From Candidatus Delongbacteria bacterium (GTDB lineage Bacteria > UBA4055), in contig JAFGVM010000024.1 in the NCBI GenBank assembly GCA_016937995.1, forward strand, positions 5,026 through 69,025: 64,000 bases of DNA, written 5' to 3'. The translations under genes were made by a program, and so were the position numbers. Shown piece by piece: positions 7,655-22,340 of this stretch. A model generated the notes under the pieces. The model was not told the origin of the DNA, did no database searches, and saw nothing but the letters and a program-made list of their open reading frames with translations. How positions within the stretch are numbered: the stretch's first letter is position 1; the number at the start of each line of letters is the position of its first letter.

Positions 7655-7680
7655 TAAAAAATAGCCCCAAATGGAGCTAT
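7655..7680 (-). terminator. Terminator of the mbx-like/CBS operon
   Basis: On the minus strand ATAGCTCCA pairs with TGGGGCTAT (one G-T pair, two-base loop) and is followed by six T. It lies about 115 bp past the CBS gene stop, beyond a block of dispersed repeats, within the 357-bp gap 7437-7793. Confidence 0.75.
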
Positions 7681-7793
7681 TAGAAGTTAGATGTAGGGGC
7701 ACAACATCTTGTGCCCGGAAGCGCAAAGGGTTCAAATTGTTGAACCCGTACATATTATTTAATTGTCAATTGCAAATTGTCCATTATCAATTT
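7681..7793. repeat. Dispersed intergenic repeat block (two hairpins plus ATTGTCAATTG words)
   Basis: This part of the 7437-7793 gap holds GGGCACAA/TTGTGCCC (7697-7716), GGGTTCAA/TTGAACCC (7728-7747) and a tail of AATTGTCAATTG..TTGTCCATTATC words. The same tail words recur at 31451-31490 and 23450-23475. It contains no gene. Confidence 0.7.
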
Positions 7794-8240
7794 TTATATA
7801 TTGATCCCGTAAGGATTTTGAATATATTCCCTGAGTTCTTTCACTTCAGTCTCTGACTGCTCAAGAACCTGTTTTAGAACATCACCGATGGATAATATTC
7901 CAATTAGCTTTCCATCTTCAACTACAGGAAGATGCCTGACTCTCTTGTTGATCATCACATCCATTGCATAGCTTAATCTTTCATCTTTAGTTGCAATGAT
8001 GAGATCCTCTTTCGGAGTCATAATATCTTTGATCTTCATTGTTTCAGGATGACCGTCACATTTGTAAAGAACATCTCTCTCAGTTACGATACCCTGAAGT
8101 TTTGAACTGCCGTCAGTAACAACTAAAGATCCAACTCTATGTTTTCCGAATAACTCAACCGCTTCTTTTGCAGTACTGTTAATATCGATATTAAAAGTCT
8201 CTGTACTTTGTTTCTTCTTTAGTAAATCTGTTAATTTCAT
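7794..8240 (-). CDS. Tandem CBS-domain protein
   Basis: A 148-residue soluble protein made of two CBS domains: the first spans about residues 10-70 (HRVGSLVVTD, GIVTERDVLYK) and the second about 75-135 (RHLPVVEDGKLIGILSIGDVL). CBS pairs bind adenine nucleotides such as AMP, ATP or NADH and act as energy sensors. There is no attached catalytic domain. The gene is 14 bp downstream of the flavoprotein-fused N subunit of the mbx-like operon and shares its strand, so it may sense adenylate or NAD(H) state for the complex; that link is inference from position only. Confidence 0.88.
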   Translation of the reverse strand: MKLTDLLKKKQSTETFNIDINSTAKEAVELFGKHRVGSLVVTDGSSKLQGIVTERDVLYKCDGHPETMKIKDIMTPKEDLIIATKDERLSYAMDVMINKRVRHLPVVEDGKLIGILSIGDVLKQVLEQSETEVKELREYIQNPYGINI

Positions 8241-8254
8241 ATCACATCTCCTGT

Positions 8255-10048
8255 TTATTTACTGCTCAAATATTCATCTATACCTTTTGCTGCAGTATGA
8301 CCGTTTGCAATACCGTTGATAACATCAGGACCTTTTATAATATCTCCACCAACGAATAACCAAGGAAGTGATGATTGATATTTTTCATTAACAACAATCC
8401 TGCCTCTATCGCTGAATTCAAGTTTATCTTTAATAGATTCTAGGTAAGATAAGTCCATACCCTGACCGATTGATTCAACAACCATATCTGCCGGGAAGAA
8501 TTTCTTTTGAGCTTCATCAAATTTAGGACTGAATCTTCCTTCTTCATCGAATACTGAAAGACATTTAACAACATTTAGACCTGTTACTTTACCGTTTTCA
8601 ATTACAATCTCTTTCGGTCCCCATCCGGGATCAATGATACATTTTTCTTCTCTTGCTTCAACAACCTCTTCCCTGTCAGCAGGCATAATATCTTCAGTCT
8701 CAAGTGAAGTTGCAGTCACATCTACCTTACCATATTTTTTATTCTGCAGTCTTGCTAACGATCTGGTGATATCCATCGCAACATTACCACCACCGATAAC
8801 AACTACTTTTTTATCAACGCGGATCTCATTTCCAAGAGATATCTCTCTCAGAAGATCAGTTGCAAAGTAAACATTCTCATGTTCAGAACCCGGTATTCTT
8901 GTACTTCTACCAAGGTGCAAACCTGTGCCTGAGAAGACCGCATCATAATCTTGTTCAAGTTGTTCTATTGTAATATCTTTACCTATACGAACATTATATT
9001 CTATCTCGACACCGCAGGATAAAATATAGTTAATATCTTTATCGATCTGGTCGTAAGGAAGACGATATTCAGGAATACCGTATCTCATCATTCCACCTGC
9101 AGCAGGAAGTGCTTCAAATATCTTAATTGCATATCCCATTCTTGATAAGTAATAAGCAGCTGAAAGGCCTGAAGGTCCTGAACCTATTATTGCTACTTTT
9201 TTACTCTTTGGAGTGATCTCTAAGCCTCGTTCAAGAACTTCTTTATATTTACTCTCAGGAACTTGATCAGCGATATATCTTTTTAACCAACGAATAGATA
9301 AAGGTTCCCCTTTGTGACCGATCGCACAGACAGTTTCACACCTATGAGTACATATTCTACCACATATCTCCGGCAATGGATTAGTTTCATACATTATTCT
9401 GAGACCTTCTTCCATATCGTCATTTCTGATAGCTTTGATATATTCAGGGATAGCCATATGAGCAGGACAAGTTGCAGTACAAAGGCCACAATCAATACAT
9501 CTGTCCGCTTCCGCTTCCGCCTGTTCTTTAGAATAACCTTTTACGAATTCAATGAATGATTTATCCCTTTCTTCAGGATGAAGCTCAGCCATGTCAACTC
9601 TATCGTAATTGTTAAGATCATAATTTTTAGGTTTAGTCCACCCAAGTTCATTATTATCCCACTCTTTTTTGTCATATCCGGGAATAAATCTGAAAACATC
9701 CGGATCAGAATCGATCCAGGTATATTCGTTAGATAAAGTCAGAGAATTTGTCGAACAAACATCAACACATAAAGCACACCAGCAACACCTGCCGTAATCA
9801 ACCATTGGCCTTAATCCACTGTCACCGTCTTTAGTTTCAATACCTTCAACAGGAACCATATCTATAGCAGCATTCTGACAAATCTCTTCGCATGCTCCAC
9901 AACCAATACATTTATCCAGCTCGTTTTTGTGGAATCCTCTATATCTTGGAGCACCCGGTCTGTCATTGAACGGATCTTTAACAGTAACCGGATCCTTAAA
10001 TACTTTCTTCCAAGCTAAAAATGGTGATAATACATCTTTTATACTCAT
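8255..10048 (-). CDS. Fusion of NuoI/MbxN-like 2[4Fe-4S] subunit with GltD-type NAD(P)H flavoprotein
   Basis: A 597-residue fusion. Residues 1-100 resemble the NuoI/MbhN/MbxN subunit with two [4Fe-4S] motifs (Cys47, 50, 53, 57 and Cys88, 91, 94, 98). Residues about 165-597 are a glutamate-synthase small-subunit/NfnB-like module: the cysteine-rich region (CIDCGLCTATCP, 184-194, and Cys229, 233, 237, 241), the FAD motif GSGPSG (289-294) and the NAD(P) motif GGGNVAMD (419-426). It has no GltB partner. Its place at the end of the mbx-like gene order, where mbxN belongs, suggests it lets the membrane complex exchange electrons with NAD(P)H as well as ferredoxin. Direction of electron flow cannot be read from sequence. 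The N-L gap holds repeat words. Confidence 0.9.
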   Translation of the reverse strand: MSIKDVLSPFLAWKKVFKDPVTVKDPFNDRPGAPRYRGFHKNELDKCIGCGACEEICQNAAIDMVPVEGIETKDGDSGLRPMVDYGRCCWCALCVDVCSTNSLTLSNEYTWIDSDPDVFRFIPGYDKKEWDNNELGWTKPKNYDLNNYDRVDMAELHPEERDKSFIEFVKGYSKEQAEAEADRCIDCGLCTATCPAHMAIPEYIKAIRNDDMEEGLRIMYETNPLPEICGRICTHRCETVCAIGHKGEPLSIRWLKRYIADQVPESKYKEVLERGLEITPKSKKVAIIGSGPSGLSAAYYLSRMGYAIKIFEALPAAGGMMRYGIPEYRLPYDQIDKDINYILSCGVEIEYNVRIGKDITIEQLEQDYDAVFSGTGLHLGRSTRIPGSEHENVYFATDLLREISLGNEIRVDKKVVVIGGGNVAMDITRSLARLQNKKYGKVDVTATSLETEDIMPADREEVVEAREEKCIIDPGWGPKEIVIENGKVTGLNVVKCLSVFDEEGRFSPKFDEAQKKFFPADMVVESIGQGMDLSYLESIKDKLEFSDRGRIVVNEKYQSSLPWLFVGGDIIKGPDVINGIANGHTAAKGIDEYLSSK

Positions 10049-10154
10049 GTTAATCCTCTATATAAAAACTTTCTATTCTTGGTTTAGAGTTTTGAGTTGT
10101 TGGTTTTGAGTTATTGGGAACTTATCCTCACAACTCACAACCCGCAACTCACAA
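10049..10154. repeat. Intergenic repeat words (GAGTTGTTGG / AACTCACAAC)
   Basis: The 106-bp gap between the L and N subunit genes contains GAGTT..TTGAGTT words followed by inverted CTCACAACTCACAAC words, allowing an imperfect stem. Related GTTGTGGGTT..GTTGTGAGTT text occurs at 22341-22371. It is an unusual insertion inside an otherwise tight operon. Confidence 0.6.
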
Positions 10155-11333
10155 CTATCTCTCAATTTCCGGTGGGCATGTAGCTAATGATACCATCAAC
10201 GATGAAACATCTGATATATTAGCGTTTACCAATATTTTTTCAAGTAACACCATTGCTGAATTATAACTTGGTCCTCTAAGATTTATTCTTCTAGGGTATT
10301 CAGTACCGTCAGTTACCATATAGAAACCGTATTCACCTCTGGATGATTCTATTCTTTTGTAAGTTTCACCTTTAGGTATTTTCCAATGAAGAACATTCGG
10401 TGTCTTGGCTCTGATCTCACCTTTTTCCGGCATTTTAGCCATGATCTGCCTTATAAGATCTACTGACGCTTGAAGATCATGCCATCTTACCCTTGATCTT
10501 GCATAAATATCTGAATCTTTCTCAGTATGAGGTTCAAAGTCTAATTTATCATATTTCAAATACGGATAATCTTTTCTGACATCTCTCATTATTCCAGCTG
10601 CTCTGGCATTAGGACCAACAACACTGTATTTATCGATCCAATCCTTTTCAATTACTCCAACACCTTTTGTTCTCTTCTTGAAAACAGCATTACTGAACAT
10701 CAAATTATCTATATCAACGACAAATTCATCAATTTTTTTTAATACTTCTTCCATTCTTTCTTTGAATCCGGAAGGTAATAGTCCTCTAACTCCACCAGGT
10801 GCAATATACATGTGATAAACCCTGCCACCTGTAAGTTCTTCAAATCTGTCCAGCATCAGGTCCCTGATATAAACACCCCACTGAACTCCCATTCCAAGAC
10901 TCATAGTCCCACCTTGTCCGGGAACTCCTCTAAGCAGTATAGTTACTCTTGCCATTTCAAGCACTAATGTTCTTAGCCATTCTGCCATCTCTGGGACCTC
11001 AATACCTCCAAGTTCTTCAACAGATGCAGCAAGCAAATATTCATTAATATCAGGCTCGGGAACGCACATTCTGATGCAGATAGGAAAACACTGGATGAAT
11101 TTTCTTCTTTCCATCAATTTTTCAAAAGCTCTGTACAGATAACCTACATGTGTCTTTGATTTAATAACTTCATCACCGGAAACTGTAAGTTCAAGTGCCA
11201 TATTTCCTGTAACTCCAGGATGGTTCGGCCCTTGCCAGATCTTTACATATTTTTGGGAATCAAGATCGAAATCTAATGTTCCGTCATCTTTCATAGTAGG
11301 AAATTTTGATCTGTCTTCTTTTATATTGAACAT
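10155..11333 (-). CDS. NuoD/MbxL-like large subunit of the group-4-hydrogenase-related complex
   Basis: A 392-residue homologue of the 49-kDa complex I subunit/NiFe-hydrogenase large subunit family (GPNHPGVTGNM, HVGYLYRAFEKL, IAPGGVRGLLP). Catalytic [NiFe] hydrogenases need two CxxC pairs; here the N-terminal region has Cys82, Cys86 and Cys90 in a CxxxCxxxC arrangement and the C-terminus ends SLATCPPEIER with one cysteine and no DPCxxC. A NiFe centre is therefore not supported. The same loss is expected of MbxL of the archaeal sulfane reductase and of NuoD. It lies between the N fusion gene and the K subunit in mbx order. Confidence 0.9.
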   Translation of the reverse strand: MFNIKEDRSKFPTMKDDGTLDFDLDSQKYVKIWQGPNHPGVTGNMALELTVSGDEVIKSKTHVGYLYRAFEKLMERRKFIQCFPICIRMCVPEPDINEYLLAASVEELGGIEVPEMAEWLRTLVLEMARVTILLRGVPGQGGTMSLGMGVQWGVYIRDLMLDRFEELTGGRVYHMYIAPGGVRGLLPSGFKERMEEVLKKIDEFVVDIDNLMFSNAVFKKRTKGVGVIEKDWIDKYSVVGPNARAAGIMRDVRKDYPYLKYDKLDFEPHTEKDSDIYARSRVRWHDLQASVDLIRQIMAKMPEKGEIRAKTPNVLHWKIPKGETYKRIESSRGEYGFYMVTDGTEYPRRINLRGPSYNSAMVLLEKILVNANISDVSSLMVSLATCPPEIER

Positions 11334-11364
11334 CTACTGTCCTCTAATTTTGTTTTATTATTAT

Positions 11365-11403
11365 GTGCTGTGAGACGTTGCGGGGCAACGTCTCTACGAG
11401 CAC
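11365..11403. repeat. MITE-like palindrome GAGACGTTGC/GCAACGTCTC
   Basis: GAGACGTTGC (11372-11381) and GCAACGTCTC (11385-11394) form a 10-bp stem, nested inside an outer GTGCT/AGCAC pair (11365-11369, 11399-11403). A half copy (GCAACGTCTCTAC) is at 19314-19327, and a related GTGAGACGC..GCGTC block is near 51695. This is a dispersed element, not a terminator: there is no T tract. Confidence 0.75.
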
Positions 11404-11967
11404 CTAACCCTGATCCGGATACAATTTTGATTTCATGTATTCCTTTGTATCATAACTCTTCCTTCCTTCTCTCGGGAAGAAATTATCTGTAGCATATTTC
11501 AATGTATCAAAATCTCTTCTCATAGGTGGGATATCATCCCAGTCTTCCAGTACAAAATCATCATTAACACCGGGACTGCCGGGAAAATCGATGCCGAATA
11601 ATTCTTTAATTTCTCTCTGATCTGTTTGTGCATGTATCCATAGATGATGAATAGAATCCATAACAGGATTATCTCTGTCAATATCAACTCGGATAGCAAT
11701 ATCATATTTGTTTACAGGATGATTTAAAATGTATGTCAGCTGAAATTTGTTCTCTTCCAGCCAGTCAACACTTGACAGCATTATCAAATGTGTAAAACCT
11801 TCAAGCTCTTTCAGATAATTCAGAATATCGACAAGTAATTTTTTCCCGATAGAAAAAAACAGCAGATCATCCCTTTTCTGAAGAACATCCGTGATCTCAT
11901 ATTTACTTTTTATCTTTTCTAATATTTCATTCATATCTTTTAATCCTATTTTAATTCCTATATCCAT
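11404..11967 (-). CDS. NuoC/MbxK-like 30-kDa subunit
   Basis: A 187-residue homologue of the complex I 30-kDa subunit. The conserved region DQREIKELFGIDFPGSP (about 135-150) matches the family signature ERE..DLFG..F.GHP, followed by LEDWDDIPPMRRDF. The protein belongs to the peripheral arm and contacts the L and J subunits. The start is uncertain: Met1 at 11967 or Met12 at 11934, the latter with AGGA nine bases upstream. It is separated from the J subunit gene by 130 bp of structured sequence, which is unusual in this compact operon. Confidence 0.9.
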   Translation of the reverse strand: MDIGIKIGLKDMNEILEKIKSKYEITDVLQKRDDLLFFSIGKKLLVDILNYLKELEGFTHLIMLSSVDWLEENKFQLTYILNHPVNKYDIAIRVDIDRDNPVMDSIHHLWIHAQTDQREIKELFGIDFPGSPGVNDDFVLEDWDDIPPMRRDFDTLKYATDNFFPREGRKSYDTKEYMKSKLYPDQG

Positions 11968-12097
11968 ATAATCCCAAAATTGCTTTAAACGAAGATTTAC
12001 AAGGAAGAGTGATATTACTTCGAAATGGAGCTTGGTTAACCCAAGTGACTTGAGAAGGAATTCACTCTGACGAAGTAAATCAAAGTTTAAAAAATTT
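11968..12097 (-). other. Structured intercistronic spacer with crossing complementary segments
   Basis: Within the J-K gap, written on the plus strand, the order is GATTTAC (11994-12000), GAGTGA (12007-12012), TTACTTCG (12015-12022), CTTGG/CCAAG hairpin (12031-12045), TCACTC (12062-12067), CGAAGTAA (12071-12078) overlapping GTAAATC (12075-12081). GAGTGA/TCACTC can pair with either GATTTAC/GTAAATC (nested) or TTACTTCG/CGAAGTAA (crossing, pseudoknot-like), not both. It might be an RNA switch, a processing site, or a dispersed DNA element. Confidence 0.5.
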
Positions 12098-12742
12098 TTA
12101 CCAGTTGTAATCGGGCATATCCCATCCTTTGATTACCTTCTTTTGATTAGCCTTATACCAGTCAAATCTCTCAGCATAATCATTTGCACCTTCGGCTTTA
12201 CCTGCTCTGATCCTTTTCTTCAGCTCTACAAACCCTGAAAGAATTGCTTCAGGTCTTGGCATACATCCCGTGATATAAACATCTACCGGAATATAGTGAT
12301 CCAGTCTGTTGATAGTATTAAAACTATCATAATACATTCCACCGTTAATCGTACAACTGCCTAATGCTATTATATACTTAGGACCCTGCATTTGCTCATA
12401 AGCTCTGATAACTCTTTTCAAAGTTTTCACAGCCAAATATCCTGAAATAATAAACACACCTGCTTGTCTTGGAGTAGGTCTCATCTGAACACCGTATCTG
12501 AACATATCAAATCTTGGAGTTGTCAAAGGCGGTAATTCAATACTACCACACCCTGTTCCCCATCCAAGTACCCATAGAGAATTCGATCTTGCCCAGTTGA
12601 AGAATTTTTCAAGTAACGGATGTGCAGGCTCCTGAACTTCAGGTCTTTTATCACAAAAGTATTCTTTCATCGGATCAACTGTAAATACTTCACCATCAGG
12701 TGCGGTTACAGTTCTCTTTTTTAAATCATCCATTCGAGTCAT
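12098..12742 (-). CDS. NuoB/MbxJ-like small subunit carrying the proximal cluster
   Basis: A 214-residue homologue of the PSST/hydrogenase small subunit. NuoB uses CC, C and C to hold the N2 cluster, and hydrogenases use CxxC, C, C. Here only Cys65 (GTGCGSIE), Cys130 (ALGSCTINGG) and Cys160 (ITGCMPRPE) are present, with glycines beside Cys65. Three ligands imply a site-differentiated [4Fe-4S] cluster, the feature reported for the archaeal membrane-bound sulfane reductase. One further cysteine (Cys30) lies in the N-terminal extension. The gene is 15 bp downstream of the NuoH-like gene. Confidence 0.92.
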   Translation of the reverse strand: MTRMDDLKKRTVTAPDGEVFTVDPMKEYFCDKRPEVQEPAHPLLEKFFNWARSNSLWVLGWGTGCGSIELPPLTTPRFDMFRYGVQMRPTPRQAGVFIISGYLAVKTLKRVIRAYEQMQGPKYIIALGSCTINGGMYYDSFNTINRLDHYIPVDVYITGCMPRPEAILSGFVELKKRIRAGKAEGANDYAERFDWYKANQKKVIKGWDMPDYNW

Positions 12743-12757
12743 TTATTTAAACCTCTA

Positions 12758-13678
12758 TTAGTTAATATATGTCGCATAAATCACACCTAAAACACCAATT
12801 ACTAAAGGTACTTTCACGAACCATGCCACTGATTGATCTACTCTGTATCTCGGAAATACTACTCCAACGAACACTGTGGTAAAGTATATGAAGAAAGTTT
12901 TTACTATAAATTCTATCCAGTTCGTAGCTCCACCAAAGAATAAATTCATAAAAAGTGCAGATTCTACAATATGAAGGATAGCTCTGTTGGATTGAAGCAT
13001 TCCAAGATAAGTAGAGTGATATTCAGTTGGTGGACCGATCGGTATTTCCTGAGGTGCCATTACTACATTAAAAGGAGCATGTCGCATAATTCCGAGAAAA
13101 GATAACATTCCTGCTAGAGTCGCAACGGGATTCTGAAATAATGTCCAGTGAAGGATTCCACCTTGTTGTGCTGCTACTATATTATAAACTGATAATGTTT
13201 GATATTGAATTGCAATAGCAATTATAGCGAGTGTAAATGAAATCTCAACAGTCGTAAATTGTGCAAGCCCTCTACTGATCCCGATAGTAGAATTAGGATG
13301 TCCCGCTTCTCCGGCACCTAAAGCCATTCCAAGCATTCCGAAAAATTGGAAGTACATTAGTAATACAATATCACCTGTGAATGAAAAATTCTTAAAATAT
13401 ATTGAACCGAATATCATAGGCATGAATAAGAAAAGTCCTATTCCGCCACCCAATCTGAAAATTGGTCCAAGATAAAACATAATACCATGAGTTATTTGTG
13501 ATCTTTTAGCCAAATTTTTAATAATGTCAAAATATGACTGATATACCGGAATCCCATATCTTCCTGCTACTCTGGCAACTATCTTCCTCATAACCCCTGA
13601 CTGAAGAAGCCCGTAGTTAAAAACTATGAATAAACCTAATAGGGAATATAGTATTCTTGATGTAAGTGTCAATTCCAT
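12758..13678 (-). CDS. NuoH/MbxM-like membrane subunit
   Basis: A 306-residue polytopic protein of the complex I subunit 1/NuoH/HyfC family. Characteristic segments are GIPVYQSYFDIIKNLAKRSQ on the first cytoplasmic loop and the acidic loop MAPQEIPIGPPTEYHSTYLG. It anchors the hydrophilic arm to the membrane arm at the quinone-cavity position; in Mbh and Mbx complexes the site carries no quinone. Its start overlaps the end of the antiporter fusion gene by one base, which points to translational coupling. Confidence 0.92.
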   Translation of the reverse strand: MELTLTSRILYSLLGLFIVFNYGLLQSGVMRKIVARVAGRYGIPVYQSYFDIIKNLAKRSQITHGIMFYLGPIFRLGGGIGLFLFMPMIFGSIYFKNFSFTGDIVLLMYFQFFGMLGMALGAGEAGHPNSTIGISRGLAQFTTVEISFTLAIIAIAIQYQTLSVYNIVAAQQGGILHWTLFQNPVATLAGMLSFLGIMRHAPFNVVMAPQEIPIGPPTEYHSTYLGMLQSNRAILHIVESALFMNLFFGGATNWIEFIVKTFFIYFTTVFVGVVFPRYRVDQSVAWFVKVPLVIGVLGVIYATYIN

Positions 13679-16600
13679 TAAAATATCCCTCCGTTAAGAA
13701 TAAAGTAGAAAAATACGACAAAACCGATTATGTGCATAATATATACCTGTGCATTACCGTTATAGAATTTTCTGAAGAAATCTGAACTCGAATGAAAAAG
13801 ATCAGTTATAAAATTCCAGAAATTTGTTACTAGTGGCAAGACAAGAAAACCAAGAGCTTTTCTGTAATGTGAGAACATATTATATGAAAAATGTGCAGTT
13901 TGAGGACTTTCAGGTCTTTCGGCAGAATATACAATGTTGAACATTTCAACTTTTGTTGCTTTCCTGCTTGCAAATAATAGGAATCCTAATAAAACAGCGA
14001 ACATGACACATACTATTATCATTATATAGAACGGATCCCAAACACCGAATAATTTACCATTTACAAAAGTTGATGCGGCATCACCATTCCAGACAACAGT
14101 GTTCTCAGGTAATATTTCTTTAAAATATAAACCTACTTTCTCCAGTATCATCCTTGGTTTTGATGATAAGACCATCAGAGTAGCTATTATCAAATATTGA
14201 GGTATCAAATACCAAACTGATACTTCTGTCATTTTTCTATGCTTATCTTTTATAGGTCCTAAGAAAATCGAATATATTAGTTTGAAAAGATATAAGAAAG
14301 CTACAACTCCAGAGAAGGCAATAATTGCACCCTGGAAATACCATCCTTTTAAGATAAAAGCGTTATAAAGAAGCCATTTTCCACCGAATCCTGCCAATGG
14401 AGGAACACCTGACAATGCAATTATACCGATAAGAACTGAAATAAAAGACATCGGCATTTTTTTTATCAAACCACCCATTTCATACATTTTATGAGTTTTG
14501 AGTTTTAATACTATCGCACCTACTGCAAGGAATAATAAGGCTTTATACAAGAAATGAGTGATCGAATACCAAATTGCTGCCAGCCAGCCTACATTTGTCA
14601 TTATTGCTAGAGCAAATAAGATATAACCTAACTGAGCTATACTTGAATAAGCCAGTAATTTCTTCGCATCTTCCTGGAATGAAGCTATTAAATTTCCAAG
14701 TAAAGCTGTAATTGCTCCTACCCAGCCTAATATGTAAAATAGATTTGAAACATCGTTATTTCTCATTGCTATGAATAGAATTATCAGTCCGAATACTCCG
14801 GCTTTTAGTAGTACTGCAGAAACCATTGGAGAAACATCACTTTCTGCTTCAGCGTGAGCTCCCGGCAACCAGATATGAAGTCCGATAGAAGCAGTTTTTG
14901 TCATAAAACCCAGTGCAAGAAGTATAAATACCATAGTTGCATAAATATGAACCTCCGACAATGAAGTTAATAAAATACTTCCGGTTTCAGCTCCGGATAA
15001 AGCAAATCCGAATAAGATCAGATAAGCACCACCTGCAGAGAATAATATATAACTCAATGCGTGAGACATTGATCTTTTACCTCTCAGGATCAGGAAGTAC
15101 GAACCTGCTGTCATTATTTCCCAGGCAAAAAAGAATTGAAAGAAAGTTTCAGCTTCGATCAATCCGATCAGTCCTACATACATCATAGCAGCAACAGGAT
15201 AGAATCCTATTCTCTTCCCTTTTACGCTATAACCGGGAATAAATGTTAATATTCCACCGACTAAGAATATCAAAGCGAATATCAGCTTTAAAGTATCTAA
15301 ACCGGGAACAAGTATATATCCATAGTATGATACGGCGATCATAACCAGTGTATTCTTAATATATACTGGTAAGAAGTCTATTAAGAATAGTATTCCCACA
15401 AATGCTAAAGGTATGAAATTAATTGACAGACCAGCATCAAATGATCTGGTAATATAGAACCCTGCGACATAAAGCAATAGAGTAACAATATAGACCGGAT
15501 GTAACTGATGTTGAGGTTTTTCTACTTTTTCTTCACTGTCTTCCAGTTTAAGAATGTAACCGAACCATCTGAATAAATAAAGGACTTCAAGTATCGATGC
15601 TAATATCACCAGACTTATCCATAAGAACGATCCATTCTCAGCCAGTATCATTACTAAAGACCATTTTGCGGCTAAAGATGGAAATGGAGGGAAACCCATC
15701 AGTGCTAAGATAAATGTTCCGAACATGAAAATCAGAATAGGATGTTTCTTTATCTTTACCCAGTCTTGAATTTTCTCAGCTTTTACAATTCCTGACAACC
15801 AGAACAAACCTGCTTTAGCTAAGAAATGACTGATAAGTAATCCAAAGAATATTTTCTCAAAATTATCACCGAGTATATCTTTTGATGCTATTACAAATAC
15901 CAATAATCCGATCTGACCTATCGAAGAATAACCTAACAATCTATTCGTACTCTTCTGCATAATTGCGAAAAGGTTTGATACTACAAAAGTAAGCACACCG
16001 ATTATAACGATCATCTTTGTTAGATCAATTGATGCTAAAGGAAGTACTTTGTATAGAACAAATAACAAAGCCGTTGCAGATGTTGCTGAGATCATTGCAG
16101 AAATGCCTGTATCAGATCCTTCATAAACATCTAAGGCCCAACCGTTAGCAGGGAAAACTTTTAATTCAATTACAACAGAGAATATCAGTATGAATACGCC
16201 AACAAATAATATTTGTGATGAACCTGCAGCTGATACAGCAGCGATCATTCCATCTAAGTTCAAAGTTCCTGTTTTAGAATATATAAGGATTATACCAAGA
16301 AGTAAAAATACTGATGCAATCCCACCTGCAATCATATATTTAAATCCTGCAGACAGAGATTTTAATCTTAAGTCCATACCTATAAGGATATACGTTGCAA
16401 TTGATGTAATTTCCAGGAAAACAAAAATATTGAATATATCTCTGGTCAATACTAATCCGTTCATTCCGAGTATGAAGAGTAAAAATACTACTAATGCCTG
16501 AATTCCGTTCTCTGCAAAATATTTAAACGAATAGATCGCTCCAAGTAAAGCACCAAAATTGATCAATGTAATTAGAACCGCTTCATTTAACCCCATCTGT

Positions 16601-16821
16601 AAATTGATCGACATCGGAGGTTTAAATCCGGCAGTGAAGATCTGTACAGCTTGTTGACCATCGATCAGAAAAGCTGACAACCATTGGTAACTGATCGCAG
16701 TAACTGCTATTATTCCTAAAAAGAATATTGTTACTGTTACTTTTATTCCGGCCTTATTTATTGACGGCAATAAAAATCCAAGACCTAGTAAGATTGCTAT
16801 TATATATATTGGATTTACCAT
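13678..16821 (-). CDS. Fused double Mrp/NuoLMN-type ion pump (MbxH'-MbxH'')
   Basis: A 1047-residue membrane protein made of two complete antiporter-like units in one polypeptide, about 1-510 and 515-1047. Each unit keeps the residues needed for pumping: Glu137 (FLEITS), Lys221, Lys258 and Lys336 in the first; Glu568 (AWEIMTAG), Lys642, Lys673 and Lys760 in the second. The family norm is about 480-600 residues per unit. Archaeal mbx operons encode these as two genes; here they are joined. A C-terminal extension (about 950-1047) adds a last helix. It overlaps the MnhC-like gene by 7 bp and the NuoH-like gene by 1 bp. Confidence 0.92.
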   Translation of the reverse strand: MVNPIYIIAILLGLGFLLPSINKAGIKVTVTIFFLGIIAVTAISYQWLSAFLIDGQQAVQIFTAGFKPPMSINLQMGLNEAVLITLINFGALLGAIYSFKYFAENGIQALVVFLLFILGMNGLVLTRDIFNIFVFLEITSIATYILIGMDLRLKSLSAGFKYMIAGGIASVFLLLGIILIYSKTGTLNLDGMIAAVSAAGSSQILFVGVFILIFSVVIELKVFPANGWALDVYEGSDTGISAMISATSATALLFVLYKVLPLASIDLTKMIVIIGVLTFVVSNLFAIMQKSTNRLLGYSSIGQIGLLVFVIASKDILGDNFEKIFFGLLISHFLAKAGLFWLSGIVKAEKIQDWVKIKKHPILIFMFGTFILALMGFPPFPSLAAKWSLVMILAENGSFLWISLVILASILEVLYLFRWFGYILKLEDSEEKVEKPQHQLHPVYIVTLLLYVAGFYITRSFDAGLSINFIPLAFVGILFLIDFLPVYIKNTLVMIAVSYYGYILVPGLDTLKLIFALIFLVGGILTFIPGYSVKGKRIGFYPVAAMMYVGLIGLIEAETFFQFFFAWEIMTAGSYFLILRGKRSMSHALSYILFSAGGAYLILFGFALSGAETGSILLTSLSEVHIYATMVFILLALGFMTKTASIGLHIWLPGAHAEAESDVSPMVSAVLLKAGVFGLIILFIAMRNNDVSNLFYILGWVGAITALLGNLIASFQEDAKKLLAYSSIAQLGYILFALAIMTNVGWLAAIWYSITHFLYKALLFLAVGAIVLKLKTHKMYEMGGLIKKMPMSFISVLIGIIALSGVPPLAGFGGKWLLYNAFILKGWYFQGAIIAFSGVVAFLYLFKLIYSIFLGPIKDKHRKMTEVSVWYLIPQYLIIATLMVLSSKPRMILEKVGLYFKEILPENTVVWNGDAASTFVNGKLFGVWDPFYIMIIVCVMFAVLLGFLLFASRKATKVEMFNIVYSAERPESPQTAHFSYNMFSHYRKALGFLVLPLVTNFWNFITDLFHSSSDFFRKFYNGNAQVYIMHIIGFVVFFYFILNGGIF

Positions 16822-17177
16822 TTTAAGTCCTTGTAATCGTTAATTGACAATGATTTCTTCTGTTGGTATAATCTTATTACGAAGGTTAGCATCAGAGCAT
16901 TTACCGCCACGCCAATAACAATAGCTGTAAGAACCAGTGCCTGAGGTACAGGATCAACTATTAACGAAGATGCCTTGCTAAGCTCTACCGCAGAGTCTAA
17001 GATAGGAGCAGTTCTTCCGTCTATAAATCCAAAAGCGACCATCACAAGCTGAACACCTGTCTCTACTATTGCTAATCCTAAAATTATCTTTATCATATTC
17101 TTTTGGGTCAACATTCCCCAGAAACCTATCAATATGAGAGCAAATCCTGTTATATGAACTATAGTTGTTATATTCAT
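16815..17177 (-). CDS. MnhC/MrpC (MbxG, NuoK-like) subunit
   Basis: A 120-residue protein with three predicted membrane helices, matching NuoK/MnhC: LIGFWGMLTQKNMIKIILGLAIVETGVQLVMV contains the conserved glutamate of helix 2 (ETGVQ), followed by DPVPQALVLTAIVIGVAVNALML, a hallmark of the MnhC group. The insert between helices 2 and 3 (about 50-70) is longer than in NuoK. It overlaps the MnhB-like gene by 4 bp and the double pump gene by 7 bp. Confidence 0.92.
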   Translation of the reverse strand: MNITTIVHITGFALILIGFWGMLTQKNMIKIILGLAIVETGVQLVMVAFGFIDGRTAPILDSAVELSKASSLIVDPVPQALVLTAIVIGVAVNALMLTFVIRLYQQKKSLSINDYKDLKW

Positions 17178-17875
17178 TCAAGCTCCCCCTTCATATTGTC
17201 CAATATACTCGCCAGTTCAGTTCCTACTTTCAATCCTACAAGTGTATAGATCAGTGGTATAGTTCCAGCACTTAAAATAGTTCCAAAAGTTCCAAGTGGT
17301 AAAATTCTATTATCCAGGAAGTTATCTGCTCCGAGTATAACGAGACCTAAAACACCGATAAGGACATAGAAGATTCCCGAAAATGATTCTATTAAAACAA
17401 ATACTTTATGATTGATCTTAAATGAACTATCTGCCAAGAACATTAACATTACAGCAGATGCTATAGCTGCTCCACCCTGAAATCCACCACCAGGTGATAA
17501 ATGCCCATTTATGAATATATATGCACCAAACATTGTTATTATTGGTACCAACAGTTTTGAACCTGTCTTCAATATTTCACTGGCTGCTCTATTCTTTATT
17601 CCTGAATCATTTTTCTTTTTCTTTCTTCTGAGTAATAAAGCAATACCAGTTCCTGCCATAAATAATACAGTAACTTCACCCAGTGTATCTAAGCCTCTAT
17701 AAGTTACAACAATTGCAGTAACCAGATTCATTGCTCCAAGATCTGATGCTCCCTGTTCTGCATAAGTCTTTGCAACACCTGTCAGATCATAATTCGGTGC
17801 AACATTCGTCGCTACTTTTAATAATATGAAAAACAGTGATATTACTAATAATAAAGGTATCAGTCTTTTAATCAT
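17174..17875 (-). CDS. MbhE-MnhB fusion (MbxF-like) antiporter subunit
   Basis: A 233-residue membrane protein when begun at 17875, where GGAGG lies six bases upstream of the ATG; an upstream in-frame ATG at 17911 would add 12 residues and has no such site. The N-terminal part (to about 80, TYRGLDTLGEVTVLFMAG) is MbhE/MrpA-C-terminal-like, and the rest is MnhB (ILKTGSKLLVPIITMFGAYIF, NGHLSPGGGFQGG). Joining E and F into one subunit is how mbx operons differ from mbh. The start overlaps the MbhD-like gene by 8 bp. Confidence 0.88.
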   Translation of the reverse strand: MIKRLIPLLLVISLFFILLKVATNVAPNYDLTGVAKTYAEQGASDLGAMNLVTAIVVTYRGLDTLGEVTVLFMAGTGIALLLRRKKKKNDSGIKNRAASEILKTGSKLLVPIITMFGAYIFINGHLSPGGGFQGGAAIASAVMLMFLADSSFKINHKVFVLIESFSGIFYVLIGVLGLVILGADNFLDNRILPLGTFGTILSAGTIPLIYTLVGLKVGTELASILDNMKGELE

Positions 17876-18128
17876 TTTCTTCCTCCACATCTTTTGTTTT
17901 GTGAAGTGCATATAAAAATATCAAAGTAGATAAACCTGCACCGATAGCAGCTTCTGTCATTGCAACATCAGGTGCCTGCATCAATAGATACAATATACTT
18001 GCAAATAAACTTACTACTCCTACTGCGATGATCGAAGATATCAAATCCTTCACATGCATTGCTAATACTGCCGCAATGATCATTGCTAAACCCATCAGTA
18101 TGAAAATGCCTTGTTGTAATTCCATCAA
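17868..18128 (-). CDS. MbhD-like (DUF4040) antiporter subunit
   Basis: An 86-residue protein with two or three membrane helices. LLMQAPDVAMTEAAIGAGLSTLIFLYAL is the conserved DUF4040/MbhD core, which corresponds to part of the MrpA C-terminal region and to NuoJ. It overlaps the MnhG-like gene by 4 bp. In the Mrp-Mbh scheme it helps form the ion path between pump units. Confidence 0.9.
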   Translation of the reverse strand: MMELQQGIFILMGLAMIIAAVLAMHVKDLISSIIAVGVVSLFASILYLLMQAPDVAMTEAAIGAGLSTLIFLYALHKTKDVEEEND

Positions 18129-18469
18129 TCTACCTCCACTTCGGTACTTTCTTTCTCTTTCAGCTTATCAGCTACAGAACCTTTTGTCAAAGGAATTCCT
18201 TTGAAATGTGCTGCTCTAGCTAATGCATGACTTGAAATAGGATTTGTTAAAGCTATGAACATTATTATTACGAGTATCTGACCGATCCATTCGTAATGAC
18301 AGATTCCGATTCCTAATAATGTTAAAATTGTTCCTAAAGTAGTTGCTTTAGTTCCTGCCTGCATCCTGTTGTAAAGATCTGGCATTCTAAATACTCCCAA
18401 AGCTCCGAGAAATAAGAATATTGAACCTATTAATGTTATTATTGATCCTAAAATTCTGTACCATTCCAT
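18125..18469 (-). CDS. MnhG/MrpG (MbxC-like) antiporter subunit
   Basis: A 114-residue protein. Three helices are predicted, with the typical MnhG pattern LGALGVFRMPDLYNRMQAGTKATTLG and later FIALTNPISSHALARAAHFKG. The C-terminal tail is charged. It starts 1 bp from the end of the MnhF-like gene and overlaps the MbhD-like gene by 4 bp, in the fixed order E-F-G of Mrp modules. Confidence 0.92.
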   Translation of the reverse strand: MEWYRILGSIITLIGSIFLFLGALGVFRMPDLYNRMQAGTKATTLGTILTLLGIGICHYEWIGQILVIIMFIALTNPISSHALARAAHFKGIPLTKGSVADKLKEKESTEVEVD

Positions 18470-18470
18470 T

Positions 18471-18740
18471 TTATAGCCCCCCTTCTAAATAACGGGCTAC
18501 TGCGACTACACCTATGAAACTTAAGATAGCATAGACCATTCCTACATCCAGGAATATCACCCTTTCTGACATACACGCTATCAGTGTAATTAATGAAATG
18601 GAAATCACTGTAAATGTATCCAGCGCTACGACTCTATCTGCCATACTTGGACCTATGATCAGTCTCAGTGTCGCAAGTATTATCCCTGCTGATACAAAAT
18701 AAGTTGATATTTGTAATAATATCTCCGGTAAGTTAGCCAA
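18471..18740 (-). CDS. MnhF/MrpF (MbxB-like) antiporter subunit
   Basis: An 89-residue protein with three helices and the family signature LRLIIGPSMADRVVALDTFTV followed by DVGMVYAILSFIGVVAVARYLE. It overlaps the MnhE-like gene by 8 bp. It belongs to the Mrp-derived sodium/proton module of the complex. Confidence 0.92.
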   Translation of the reverse strand: MANLPEILLQISTYFVSAGIILATLRLIIGPSMADRVVALDTFTVISISLITLIACMSERVIFLDVGMVYAILSFIGVVAVARYLEGGL

Positions 18741-19221
18741 AGATCACCTCCAGATATTTTTCGAAATTTGCCACGATTTTCTCTGTTGCTGTTTTTTCAT
18801 CGATATTAGTAACATCGATCCAGTGTATATATAATATATCTTCATCTATATCTACTGTCAAAGTTCCGGGAGTTAATGTTATTGAATTTGCCAATATCAT
18901 TCGACCCATTGCTGATTTCAATTTTGTTTTCACTGTAACTATCCCTGGATTGATAGGGATCTTAGGAGAAACAACTCTTCGAGCTACATCGAAATTTGCC
19001 TTTATTATTTCAATGAATAGGAATATTACATACCAGATAGAATATATCCACTTTTTGGGAGACAACATTGGTTTGAACAACGATCTGTTATAGATAATAC
19101 TGATAACTAAAGCTATGAAGGCAATTATCAATATATTATACAAATCAGTAGTACCTGTCCAAATAAAATAGAACAATGTGAGAATCCCCGTCGAAAATAT
19201 CACCTTTATAATTCTATCCAT
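18733..19221 (-). CDS. MnhE/MrpE (MbxA-like) antiporter subunit
   Basis: A 162-residue protein when begun at the ATG at 19221, which follows AGAGG; a longer in-frame start at 19359 would read through a dispersed repeat and is unlikely. The N-terminal helices are followed by the MnhE core: KANFDVARRVVSPKIPINPGI, LANSITLTPGTLTVDID and LYIHWIDV. It is the first structural gene of the mbx-like operon, downstream of the MarR-type regulator. Confidence 0.9.
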   Translation of the reverse strand: MDRIIKVIFSTGILTLFYFIWTGTTDLYNILIIAFIALVISIIYNRSLFKPMLSPKKWIYSIWYVIFLFIEIIKANFDVARRVVSPKIPINPGIVTVKTKLKSAMGRMILANSITLTPGTLTVDIDEDILYIHWIDVTNIDEKTATEKIVANFEKYLEVIFG

Positions 19222-19327
19222 ATATACCTCTAAATCGTTATTTGTTGTTTTGTCATTGCGATCCCGATAAATCGGGAGTGGCAATCTTGTTTTCGTAATT
19301 GTAAGACCTTGCAGCGCAACGTCTCTA
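19222..19327. repeat. Dispersed repeat block GTCATTGCGA..GGCAATCTTG plus half palindrome
   Basis: The MarR-MnhE gap holds GTCATTGCGA and GGCAATCTTG around a CCCGAT/ATCGGG hairpin (19263-19276), then CTTGCAGC followed by GCAACGTCTCTAC, half of the palindrome at 11372-11394. GTCATTGCGA..GGCAATCTT also occurs at 23379-23410, and CCCGAT..ATCGGG at 21717-21730. Confidence 0.75.
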
Positions 19328-19813
19328 CTAACAATTATCGTTTCCTGACAAATTCTCACTGAATTTTTCTTTGTCCCTTTGCAACTTTGATGACCACACT
19401 TTATTAAGAAGATTTAGACCATTATATATTGTATCCTGATCTTGTTCATTAACTTCATCAAAGAGATCTTTGCAATAATTTATGGTTATCTTTTTTAATT
19501 CTTTAACAAATACATTTCCTTTATCGGTCAGAGTAACATTTATTCCTCTTCTGTCATCTGGGGCCATATCTCTGCGCAATAGACCTGCTTCTTCCAAAGC
19601 AGCAACGATCCTTGTAACTCCACCGGAAGTTATATTCAATCTCTCGGCCAGATCCTTGACAGATATACTTTCTGATTCAAAATACTGCTTCAGACAATTT
19701 AATTCAGAGCAAGTAAGATCCATTGATCTTGCAACTTTTTTATCTTTTAATTGACAATAAAGCTTCATTGAGCTTATTATGTTTGAAATTTCGTTTACCC
19801 GACTTTGATTCAT
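19328..19813 (-). CDS. MarR-family transcriptional regulator
   Basis: A 161-residue winged-helix protein. The DNA-binding region spans about residues 35-105: LTCSELNCLKQYFES, SVKDLAERLNITSGGVTRIVAALEEAGLLRR, then the wing DMAPDDRRGINVTLTDKG. Flanking helices would form the dimer interface. It is the promoter-proximal gene ahead of the mbx-like operon, so it probably controls both itself and the complex. The start at 19813 follows AAGGTG, and the promoter TTGACA-17-TAAATT overlaps an ACAATTGT palindrome. A ligand cannot be inferred. Confidence 0.92.
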   Translation of the reverse strand: MNQSRVNEISNIISSMKLYCQLKDKKVARSMDLTCSELNCLKQYFESESISVKDLAERLNITSGGVTRIVAALEEAGLLRRDMAPDDRRGINVTLTDKGNVFVKELKKITINYCKDLFDEVNEQDQDTIYNGLNLLNKVWSSKLQRDKEKFSENLSGNDNC

Positions 19814-19987: not shown

Positions 19988-21142
19988 ATGGCTCACGATT
20001 CATCGAATACAGATTTTGGTAAAAATTTCAATGATCTTGATATAATCGGAAAATCCGAACGTATTAACGAGGTTGTAACTATAGTGAAAACTATAGCACC
20101 AACTGATATTTCTGTACTCATTACAGGTGAAAGTGGAACAGGTAAAGAAGTTTTTGCTAACTTGATCCATAAATTAAGTCCCAGAAAAAATGAAAAATTC
20201 ATCCCTATCAACTGTGGAGCCATACCGGAGGGATTAATTGAAAGTGAACTTTTCGGTCATGAAAAAGGATCTTTTACAAGTGCATCGGATAAAAGAAAAG
20301 GTTATTTTGAGTCTGCTGACAAAGGAACGATCTTTCTTGATGAGATAAGTGAGCTCCCTCTTGCAAGTCAGGTCAAACTTCTACGTGTTCTGGAGAATGG
20401 TTCCTTTATGCGTGTTGGAGGTTCAACGAACATCAATGTTAATGTAAGGATCGTAGCAGCTTCAAACAAAGTTCTTGCCAGAATGGTGGAAAAAGGTACT
20501 TTTAGAGAAGACCTTTATTTCCGTTTAAAAGCTGTTTCGATCGAATTACCTCCATTGAGAGAAAGACTTGAGGATATACCGTTATTTGTAAGTATTTTTT
20601 CAAAATTCTCTGCAGAAAAGCACAACCGTAATCAACTTATTTTCGAAATGGATGCTATATCAGAACTTGTAAACCATCCCTGGAAAGGTAATATCAGAGA
20701 ATTGAAAAATTTTGTTGATATGCTCACTGTAATGGAAACAATGAAAGTAATAAACGGTGATACTATTAGAAAATATTTCAAAGGTAGGCCGAACTCTTCA
20801 AATCTTCCCGTAAAGCTTAATAAATTTGGTGAAGAGAATGAGAGAGAACTTATTTTCAGAACTTTGCTGGAAATCAAGAACGATCTCAACCAGATCAAAA
20901 GGTATATTTTAAAATCAGGTAAAAAAGAAATCATTTCTGACTATTCATATGAAGATGAACTTAATGGTTATTCAGATGATAATGTTATTATAACTCCCTA
21001 CGAACATGGAGACAGTGAGAAAGAGGAAATTATCTCACTTCTGAAAAAATATCGTGGCAACAGAAGAAAGACTGCTGAAGAGATGAATATATCTGAAAGA
21101 ACACTTTACCGTAAGATCACTAAACACGGGATCACTTTATGA
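19988..21142 (+). CDS. Sigma-54-dependent AAA+ transcriptional activator without receiver domain
   Basis: A 384-residue activator. The AAA+ domain begins near residue 14: Walker A GESGTGKE, Walker B GTIFLDEI, sensor RIVAASNK, arginine-finger region FREDLYFRL. The C-terminal Fis-type helix-turn-helix is GNRRKTAEEMNISERTLYRKI. No receiver, GAF or PAS domain precedes the ATPase. The sigma-54 contact loop, normally GAFTGA, reads GSFTSA (residues about 94-99), a change at the second glycine that could weaken sigma-54 contact. The stop overlaps the lptE-like start by 4 bp (ATGA); the same pairing is common in Bacteroidetes. Confidence 0.93.
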   Translation: MAHDSSNTDFGKNFNDLDIIGKSERINEVVTIVKTIAPTDISVLITGESGTGKEVFANLIHKLSPRKNEKFIPINCGAIPEGLIESELFGHEKGSFTSASDKRKGYFESADKGTIFLDEISELPLASQVKLLRVLENGSFMRVGGSTNINVNVRIVAASNKVLARMVEKGTFREDLYFRLKAVSIELPPLRERLEDIPLFVSIFSKFSAEKHNRNQLIFEMDAISELVNHPWKGNIRELKNFVDMLTVMETMKVINGDTIRKYFKGRPNSSNLPVKLNKFGEENERELIFRTLLEIKNDLNQIKRYILKSGKKEIISDYSYEDELNGYSDDNVIITPYEHGDSEKEEIISLLKKYRGNRRKTAEEMNISERTLYRKITKHGITL

Positions 21143-21857: not shown

Positions 21858-22340
21858 ATGCATACAGAAATTGTTAAATTAGATTTCCCTGAAGATGCAA
21901 ACATCATCCTGGGCCAATCACATTTTATTAAAACTGTCGAAGATATTTATGAAGCTATGGTAAATACAGTACCAAATATAAAGTTCGGTGTTGCTTTCTG
22001 TGAAGCTTCAGGTGAATGTCTGGTCAGATATCACGGAAATGATGAAGAACTTACAAAGATAGCTACAGATAATGCTTATAAAATTTCAGCCGGTCACAGT
22101 TTCATAATTGTTATGAGAGATGGTTTCCCGATAAATGTTTTAGGTAGGATCAAAGATGTACCTGAGGTATGCAGGATATTCTGTGCAACTGCTAATCCAA
22201 CCGAAGTGATAATTGCTTCTACTCATCAAGGTCGTGGAATTATGGGAGTTATTGACGGTTTTGCACCAAAGGGTATTGAAAAGGAAGATGGGAAAAAATG
22301 GCGAAAAGATTTTTTGAGAACTATCGGGTATAAATTATAG
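21858..22340 (+). CDS. Adenosine-specific kinase family protein (PF04008-like)
   Basis: A 160-residue protein matching the small adenosine-specific kinase family across its length: [34 protein letters not shown], then [39 protein letters not shown] and [11 protein letters not shown]. The family is known mostly from archaea and thermophilic bacteria; adenosine binding was seen structurally, but the physiological role is little studied. AAAGGAG stands seven bases before the ATG. It is monocistronic, with a palindromic terminator after the stop. Confidence 0.88.

Follow-up and report, generated by a model that had tools for sequence, protein, structure and literature searches.

A sulfane reductase-type Mbx operon in a Candidatus Delongbacteria genome carries a fused flavoprotein arm of predicted NAD(H) type

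The sulfane reductase complex MBS is taken as an intermediate between hydrogenase and respiratory complex I. In the MBS (Mbx) complex of Pyrococcus furiosus (PDB 6U8Y), the ligands of the proximal cluster in the MbsJ subunit are C28, C93 and C123 only (Yu 2020, PMC7684303). Among bacteria, Thermotoga maritima has a 13-subunit MBX that was gained from Thermococcales and is induced by sulfur (PMC2246101, PMC9431562), and a further bacterial Mbx has been reported for a deep-branching thermophile (PMC10356935). Here we describe an operon of the same lineage on the minus strand (19813 to 7794) of a stretch of 64,000 nucleotides, hereafter the window, from a Candidatus Delongbacteria bacterium (assembly GCA_016937995.1, contig JAFGVM010000024.1, positions 5,026 to 69,025). 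A sequence-only reading of this DNA had pointed to an mbx-type operon in a bacterium; the operon is indeed bacterial, but in view of the T. maritima complex this is not new. With P. furiosus MBS the window shares the gene order, a fused E+B subunit, two antiporter-like units, a three-cysteine J cluster, one cysteine per former [NiFe] pair in L and the lack of quinone ligands. By contrast, its N subunit is fused to an NfnB-like flavoprotein of predicted nicotinamide adenine dinucleotide (NAD(H)) type, H' and H'' form one polypeptide, the first antiporter half lacks the counterpart of Lys250, and MbsJ C25 is absent. Judged by its sequence, the encoded complex thus unites a core of MBS lineage, which has lost the [NiFe] and quinone ligands, with a flavoprotein fusion that has an NAD-type pocket and a lysine in place of a bifurcation-linked glutamate.

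The lineage of the core was read from the J and L subunits. Among solved structures, the NuoD-like L subunit (10155..11333) matched P. furiosus MbsL (6u8y_L) with 292 bits, compared with 175 bits for complex I and 121 bits for Mbh, while the NuoB-like J subunit (12098..12742) matched MbsJ (6u8y_J) with 211 bits, the next best match reaching 139 bits. In trees with named anchors, J fell into a clade with the 6u8y chain (97/97) that left NuoB, HycG and MbhJ outside, and L did so as well (100/100), with NuoD, HycE and MbhL outside; the long branches of the anchors leave the branching order beyond the MBS clade unsure in both trees. These trees rule out an origin of J or L from complex I or from Ech/Mbh and uphold the mbx/MBS assignment of the sequence-only reading. 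By sequence the core therefore belongs to the Mbx/MBS lineage, and the whole is called a variant because the MbsN-like domain, free-standing in MBS, is here fused to a flavoprotein. The other two catalytic subunits are K (NuoC-like, 11404..11967, PF00329) and M (NuoH-like, 12758..13678, PF00146).

Cys65, Cys130 and Cys160 of the window's J align exactly to the three MbsJ ligands. The sequence-only reading had named these cysteines and predicted a site-differentiated cluster, and both points hold: the alignment contains no CxxC, no CC and no fourth proximal-cluster cysteine in J, which rules out an overlooked one. J also has an N-terminal Cys30, outside the conserved region, and a glycine at the place of the non-ligand C25 of MbsJ. 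Its motif GTGCG is common to nearly all relatives, whereas complex I has CC at this site and Mbh has CxxC. The L subunit lacks both [NiFe] CxxC pairs, again in agreement with the earlier reading; only Cys90 and Cys386 are left, one per former pair, and they correspond to MbsL C85 and C385, which are dispensable for catalysis in MBS. At the positions of the complex I quinone ligands Nqo4 His38 and Tyr87, L carries Thr and Val. Over 81 Mbx-type rows, Val occupied the Tyr87 position in every one and Thr the His38 position in 79, and MbsL is likewise replaced at both. A [NiFe] group 4 hydrogenase (Mbh, Ech, Hyc) is thus ruled out by the missing CxxC pairs in L and the missing CxxC in J, and a quinone reductase by the replaced ligand residues.

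The gene that the sequence-only reading had listed as N (8255..10048) encodes 597 residues. Over its full length the protein matched NCBIfam NF010590/PRK13984 with 908 bits, just below the cut-off of 946; this cut-off was passed by one of 14 control genomes, most likely that of T. maritima. Residues 6-123 (9680..10033) contain eight ligand cysteines, conserved in 81/81 rows, and among NuoI-type chains they matched MbsN (6u8y_N) best, with 84 vs 52 bits. Residues 149-596 (8261..9604) resemble NfnB/GltD and matched P. furiosus NfnL (5jca_L) with 266 bits. An AlphaFold model of the whole N-G protein had a mean predicted local distance difference test score of 85.6, and its Foldseek match to NfnL reached E=3e-44. 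The fusion recurs in about 80 relatives spread over several anaerobic phyla; practically all homologues retain its 16 ligand-type cysteines, and the closest named record, at 92 per cent identity over the 597-residue protein, comes from Candidatus Delongbacteria.

The sequence of the flavoprotein part bears on which nicotinamide it would use. The extra phosphate of NADPH is bound in T. maritima NfnB by Y310-R311-R312. For DsrL, a related flavoprotein, kinetic work with three model enzymes has shown that YRR goes with strict NADP(H) use and triplets of the S/T-L/...-E type with NAD(H) (PMC7596348). The window has Ser448-Leu449-Glu450 (8699..8707) at this site, immediately after the strand 444-447 in the model. 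Among 80 fusions the triplet was xLE in 62 and YRR in 18, with no other state, and the split between the two corresponds to a single change on the tree (Shimodaira-Hasegawa-like approximate likelihood ratio test, 98). Furthermore, the position of NfnB Glu117, in the bifurcating enzyme the unusual ligand of the proximal cluster beside the bifurcating flavin adenine dinucleotide (FAD), is occupied by Lys256 in the window (9281..9283) and by Lys in 80/80 fusions. StnC has Lys at the same place, and its FAD is not the bifurcating one (PMC10482914). When the operon's genes were read by profile, no NfnA-like partner was found among them, so that YRR, the Glu117 ligand and an NfnA neighbour, the marks of the bifurcating NfnB/NfnL flavoprotein, are all absent. 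Because YRR is replaced by SLE, the NAD(H)-specific pattern of DsrL, the most likely donor appears to be NAD(H) rather than ferredoxin; together with Lys for Glu117, the SLE pocket suggests a simple NAD(H) dehydrogenase arm. The sequence-only reading had considered an exchange between ferredoxin and NAD(P) beside sulfane reduction. Given the NfnB-like fusion and its NAD-type pocket, the donor has to be revised to probably NAD(H).

From these features we infer a direction, a substrate, a coupling and an ion for the complex, and sulfane reduction itself. In the reading that we favour, and to which we give an even chance of being right, the ferredoxin-accepting MbsN of an Mbx/MBS-lineage complex has been turned into a nicotinamide arm, and electrons pass from NAD(H) to sulfane at the J cluster in an ion-coupled reaction. 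Hydride would be exchanged between NAD(H) and the FAD of the NfnB/GltD-like domain, after which single electrons would move through four [4Fe-4S] clusters, two in the flavoprotein domain and two in the MbsN-like one, and reach the proximal [4Fe-4S] cluster of J. The iron of this three-cysteine cluster that has no cysteine ligand would split the sulfane bond of polysulfide or a related disulfide in the chamber between J and L; it is the J site alone that suggests this substrate. The energy released would drive ion translocation via M, the second antiporter half and the Mrp-like subunits, while the first antiporter half is possibly impaired or on another route. The reaction could also run in reverse. 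Several points weigh against this proposal. For complexes with the fusion, we found no measured sulfane reduction in the literature, and no sulfur-metabolism gene lies within the operon. NADH is a weak donor for polysulfide and the energy gap is small, which would leave little to pump with, except at a high NADH/NAD ratio or with a better acceptor. The predicted preference for NAD is drawn from the motif and the analogy with DsrL, and the first antiporter half has no lysine in transmembrane helix 8 (TM8).

We weighed the favoured reading against four alternatives. An ion-translocating ferredoxin:NAD(P)+ oxidoreductase, in which electrons from ferredoxin would run through the FeS chain and the flavoprotein to NAD+ or NADP+ with ion export and no sulfur substrate, is unlikely, though it has points in its favour. 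It would account for an NfnB-like domain with an NAD(H) or NADP(H) pocket, NAD-type and NADP-type paralogues would suit redox balancing in a fermenter, and such a role is an older proposal for P. furiosus Mbx, cited in PMC6349859. Coupling in this superfamily takes place where electrons reach the J/L chamber. A flow between ferredoxin and NAD(P) only would probably confine the electrons to the N-G protein and bypass this chamber, leaving the strictly kept three-cysteine J site without use, and we prefer NAD(H)-to-sulfane transfer because of this bypass. Moreover, Rnf catalyses the ferredoxin:NAD reaction. An Rnf cluster is present in this genome, and Rnf scored above the cut-off in 44/48 genomes with the fusion, a number that has no fusion-free baseline. 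The co-occurrence proves little, since all Delongbacteria searched have an RnfC-like match, with or without the fusion. The genome also holds a Stn-like transhydrogenase, a group A6 [FeFe] hydrogenase, an HdrA2-GltD fusion (1486 residues; locus L161, 3523-7983, contig C11) and a c subunit of V-type length; no PF00374 match was found in it, which leaves it without a [NiFe] hydrogenase, and NuoD of complex I was not found either. This gene content fits a fermenting anaerobe in which ferredoxin:NAD exchange would already be handled, and coverage of this reaction by Rnf mildly favours another job for the Mbx-type complex.

A sulfane reductase fed by both ferredoxin and NADH, the flavoprotein being a side entrance or a site of confurcation, seems to us rather improbable. 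Both clusters of the MbsN-like domain are intact, all fusions retain NfnB Arg187 (as Arg329), and T. maritima mbxA rises 4.4-fold with sulfur, its MBX being proposed as ferredoxin-driven (PMC9431562). However, the bifurcation-linked glutamate is lysine throughout the fusions and the NfnA-like partner is missing from the operon, and the flavoprotein domain probably lies over the side of the MbsN-like part that would receive ferredoxin. We give still less credence to an acceptor of another small disulfide or thiol-type kind, such as a low-molecular-weight disulfide or an organic trisulfide, in place of inorganic polysulfide: MBS uses dimethyltrisulfide as a model substrate, the proposed mechanism requires just an S-S bond and the operon names no substrate, but the idea has no positive support and the J site does not differ from the one in the sulfane reductase. 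Finally, a complex I-like NADH:quinone oxidoreductase, which belongs to the same superfamily and would likewise place an NAD(H) module on a NuoBCDHI-like core with antiporter subunits, is highly improbable given the Thr and Val at the quinone-ligand positions in the window, in practically all relatives and in MbsL, and the absence of the NuoB CC pair.

The pumping part was examined through the H'H'' protein of 1047 residues (13678..16821). The best PDB matches of its halves were 6u8y_H and 6u8y_X, in each case the MBS counterpart, and the fusion of the two halves is conserved in most loci. The second half keeps the Glu and both Lys. The first half keeps Glu137 but has Thr at the position of MbsH Lys250, the TM8 lysine, so that the Glu-Lys-His channel residues of MBS are not complete in both units. 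This lysine was present in none of 50 fused homologues vs 5/8 unfused ones. The pumping with two units foreseen by the sequence-only reading therefore needs qualification: both units are present, as one protein, but two working pumps are not established because the first lacks the TM8 Lys.

Throughout the operon all genes were open, in the order MarR, E, F, G, D, E+B, C, H'H'', M, J, K, L, N-like and CBS. The E-to-N order on the minus strand given by the sequence-only reading was thus confirmed, together with its match to the archaeal mbx operon; its gene list needs three corrections, as H' and H'' are one fused gene, its N is MbsN joined to an NfnB/GltD flavoprotein and the end gene (7794..8240) encodes a CBS-domain protein. 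Pfam profiles identified MNHE, MrpF, MnhG, MbhD, MbhE plus MnhB, a NuoK-like family and two Proton_antipo_M stretches, followed by NADHdh, Oxidored_q6, 30 kDa and 49 kDa in the catalytic part. The individual Mrp-like genes encode an MnhE-like subunit of MbsA type (18733..19221, proposed ATG start 19221; PF01899, E=3.8e-40), an MrpF-like subunit of MbsB type (18471..18740; PF04066), an MnhG-like subunit of MbsC type (18125..18469; PF03334), an MbhD-like subunit (17868..18128; PF13244), a fused MbhE and MnhB subunit (17174..17911; PF20501 and PF04039 on one protein) and an MnhC/NuoK-like subunit (16815..17177; PF00420). The identical gene order with the fusion was found in dozens of loci in Bacteroidota, Spirochaetota, Fidelibacterota, Cloacimonadota, Fermentibacterota and Chlorobiota, in a search that used the N-G fusion as bait and so says nothing on the frequency of the fusion among all Mbx operons. 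With such recurrence outside its own phylum, the layout is not due to chance.

The same genome carries a second complete Mbx-NG operon (locus L079, 4597-15730, contig C36), whose flavoprotein has the YRR triplet of NADP type. Fusions of xLE and YRR type also occur together in at least 10 of 48 other genomes. Between the window and L079, protein identity was 70-99 per cent in the Mrp-like half and 46-63 per cent in the catalytic half, and the trees of the two operon halves disagree strongly. From E to C the window grouped with other Delongbacteria operons (five rows, 100), whereas from M to L it lay inside a Bacteroidota clade (24 rows, 100). The simplest reading of these trees is that the window's operon is chimeric, a Bacteroidota-type catalytic half having been joined to the native Mrp-like half. 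Assembly collapse is an unlikely source of the near-identical Mrp-like half, since, taken in steps of 200 bases, the two copies of this half agree in about 60-96 per cent of their nucleotides and not in 100 per cent, although contig C36 ends just upstream of the E gene of L079.

Several loci elsewhere bear on the variety of these operons. Two spirochaete Mbx operons (L144, 6384-7936; L145, 419-9790) have a plain MbsN and an MnhE gene moved to the end, and are possibly MBS of the ferredoxin type, in genomes where the fusion type is present as well. A locus of Cloacimonadota (L051) has a distant core with split H genes and a CTGCG J motif, and an xLE (type A) fusion 64 per cent identical to that of the window, which suggests that the flavoprotein arm may move between cores. 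In a locus of Fermentibacterota (L146), the J motif is CTGCG, the positions of the kept L cysteines are Asn and Val, and the fusion is xLE. Locus L004 (3060-12777) has seven premature stops in HH, M, NG and the surroundings of M, and a further one in a neighbouring gene; they are TAA with one TGA, and there are no frameshifts. As these stops replace Ser, Glu and Gly, there is no consistent reassignment, and they reflect damaged or decaying sequence, not an altered code.

At the borders of the window's operon, a MarR-family regulator comes first (19328..19813, PF01047), and a MarR gene precedes the operon in three Delongbacteria relatives as well. Directly upstream of it lies a divergent sigma-54 activator (19988-21142) in which no receiver domain was found. 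At the other end, a CBS-domain pair protein (7794..8240, PF00571 twice) is probably the last gene of the operon, and a CBS gene adjoins the operon in many relatives; 3' of it, a consensus scan alone marked a terminator-like hairpin (7660..7681, minus strand). Elsewhere in the window we noted a protein of 1418 residues (1977-6233) that holds numerous WGDYDNDGDLDILLTG-type repeats, which by eye resemble FG-GAP/VCBS, and an adenosine-specific kinase family protein (21858-22340, PF04008).

The arm and the complex can be placed beside four further systems. Like the window's operon, that of the T. maritima MBX is bacterial and belongs to the same Mbx lineage; it is sulfur-induced, and the literature treats the complex as ferredoxin-driven. 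With NfnB/NfnL (SudA) of the bifurcating transhydrogenase, the C-terminal two thirds of the fusion share two [4Fe-4S] clusters, FAD and the nicotinamide domain; they differ in SLE for YRR, Lys for Glu117, the lack of NfnA and their being joined to MbsN as part of a membrane complex. DsrL (type 1), an NAD(H):acceptor oxidoreductase, similarly combines an NfnB-like flavoprotein with a ferredoxin domain, carries an NAD-type triplet at the same site and serves a sulfur enzyme, as proposed for the window's fusion, but its ferredoxin domain is C-terminal and its partner is the soluble DsrAB instead of a membrane complex. Respiratory complex I also places an NAD(H) dehydrogenase arm on the shared Mrp/Mbh-derived core, with NuoEFG where the window has the NfnB-like flavoprotein; the window further differs in its lack of quinone ligands and its three-cysteine J cluster.

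In the literature searched, we found no description of a fused arm of NAD type with a single origin, of NAD- and NADP-type operons as a pair, of the chimeric operon or of the altered first pump half. Mbx-Nfn fusions did not turn up there either, and a prior description is possible; reviews of the Adams and Boyd groups reportedly deal with Mbx-Nfn gene associations in Thermotogales. Tentatively, and with somewhat more doubt than belief, we suggest that a complex I-like enzyme, in parallel to mitochondrial complex I, evolved a second time and independently when an NfnB-type arm was placed on a sulfane-reductase core. A single change in an NADP(H)-type pocket would have given the NAD(H)-type pocket, which would have spread across anaerobic phyla, and NAD- and NADP-type versions would be paired in one cell, reducing sulfane sulfur and pumping ions. 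If this is true, the usual ferredoxin-driven picture of bacterial MBX is wrong for the fusion group. The split between YRR and xLE, a simple sequence rule, bears on the annotation of bacterial MBX complexes. A widespread MBS branch with its own nicotinamide arm would mean that NAD(P)H replaced ferredoxin as donor on more than one occasion, and it would give many uncultured anaerobes an additional route at the membrane to oxidise NADH and, through the sister operon, NADPH.

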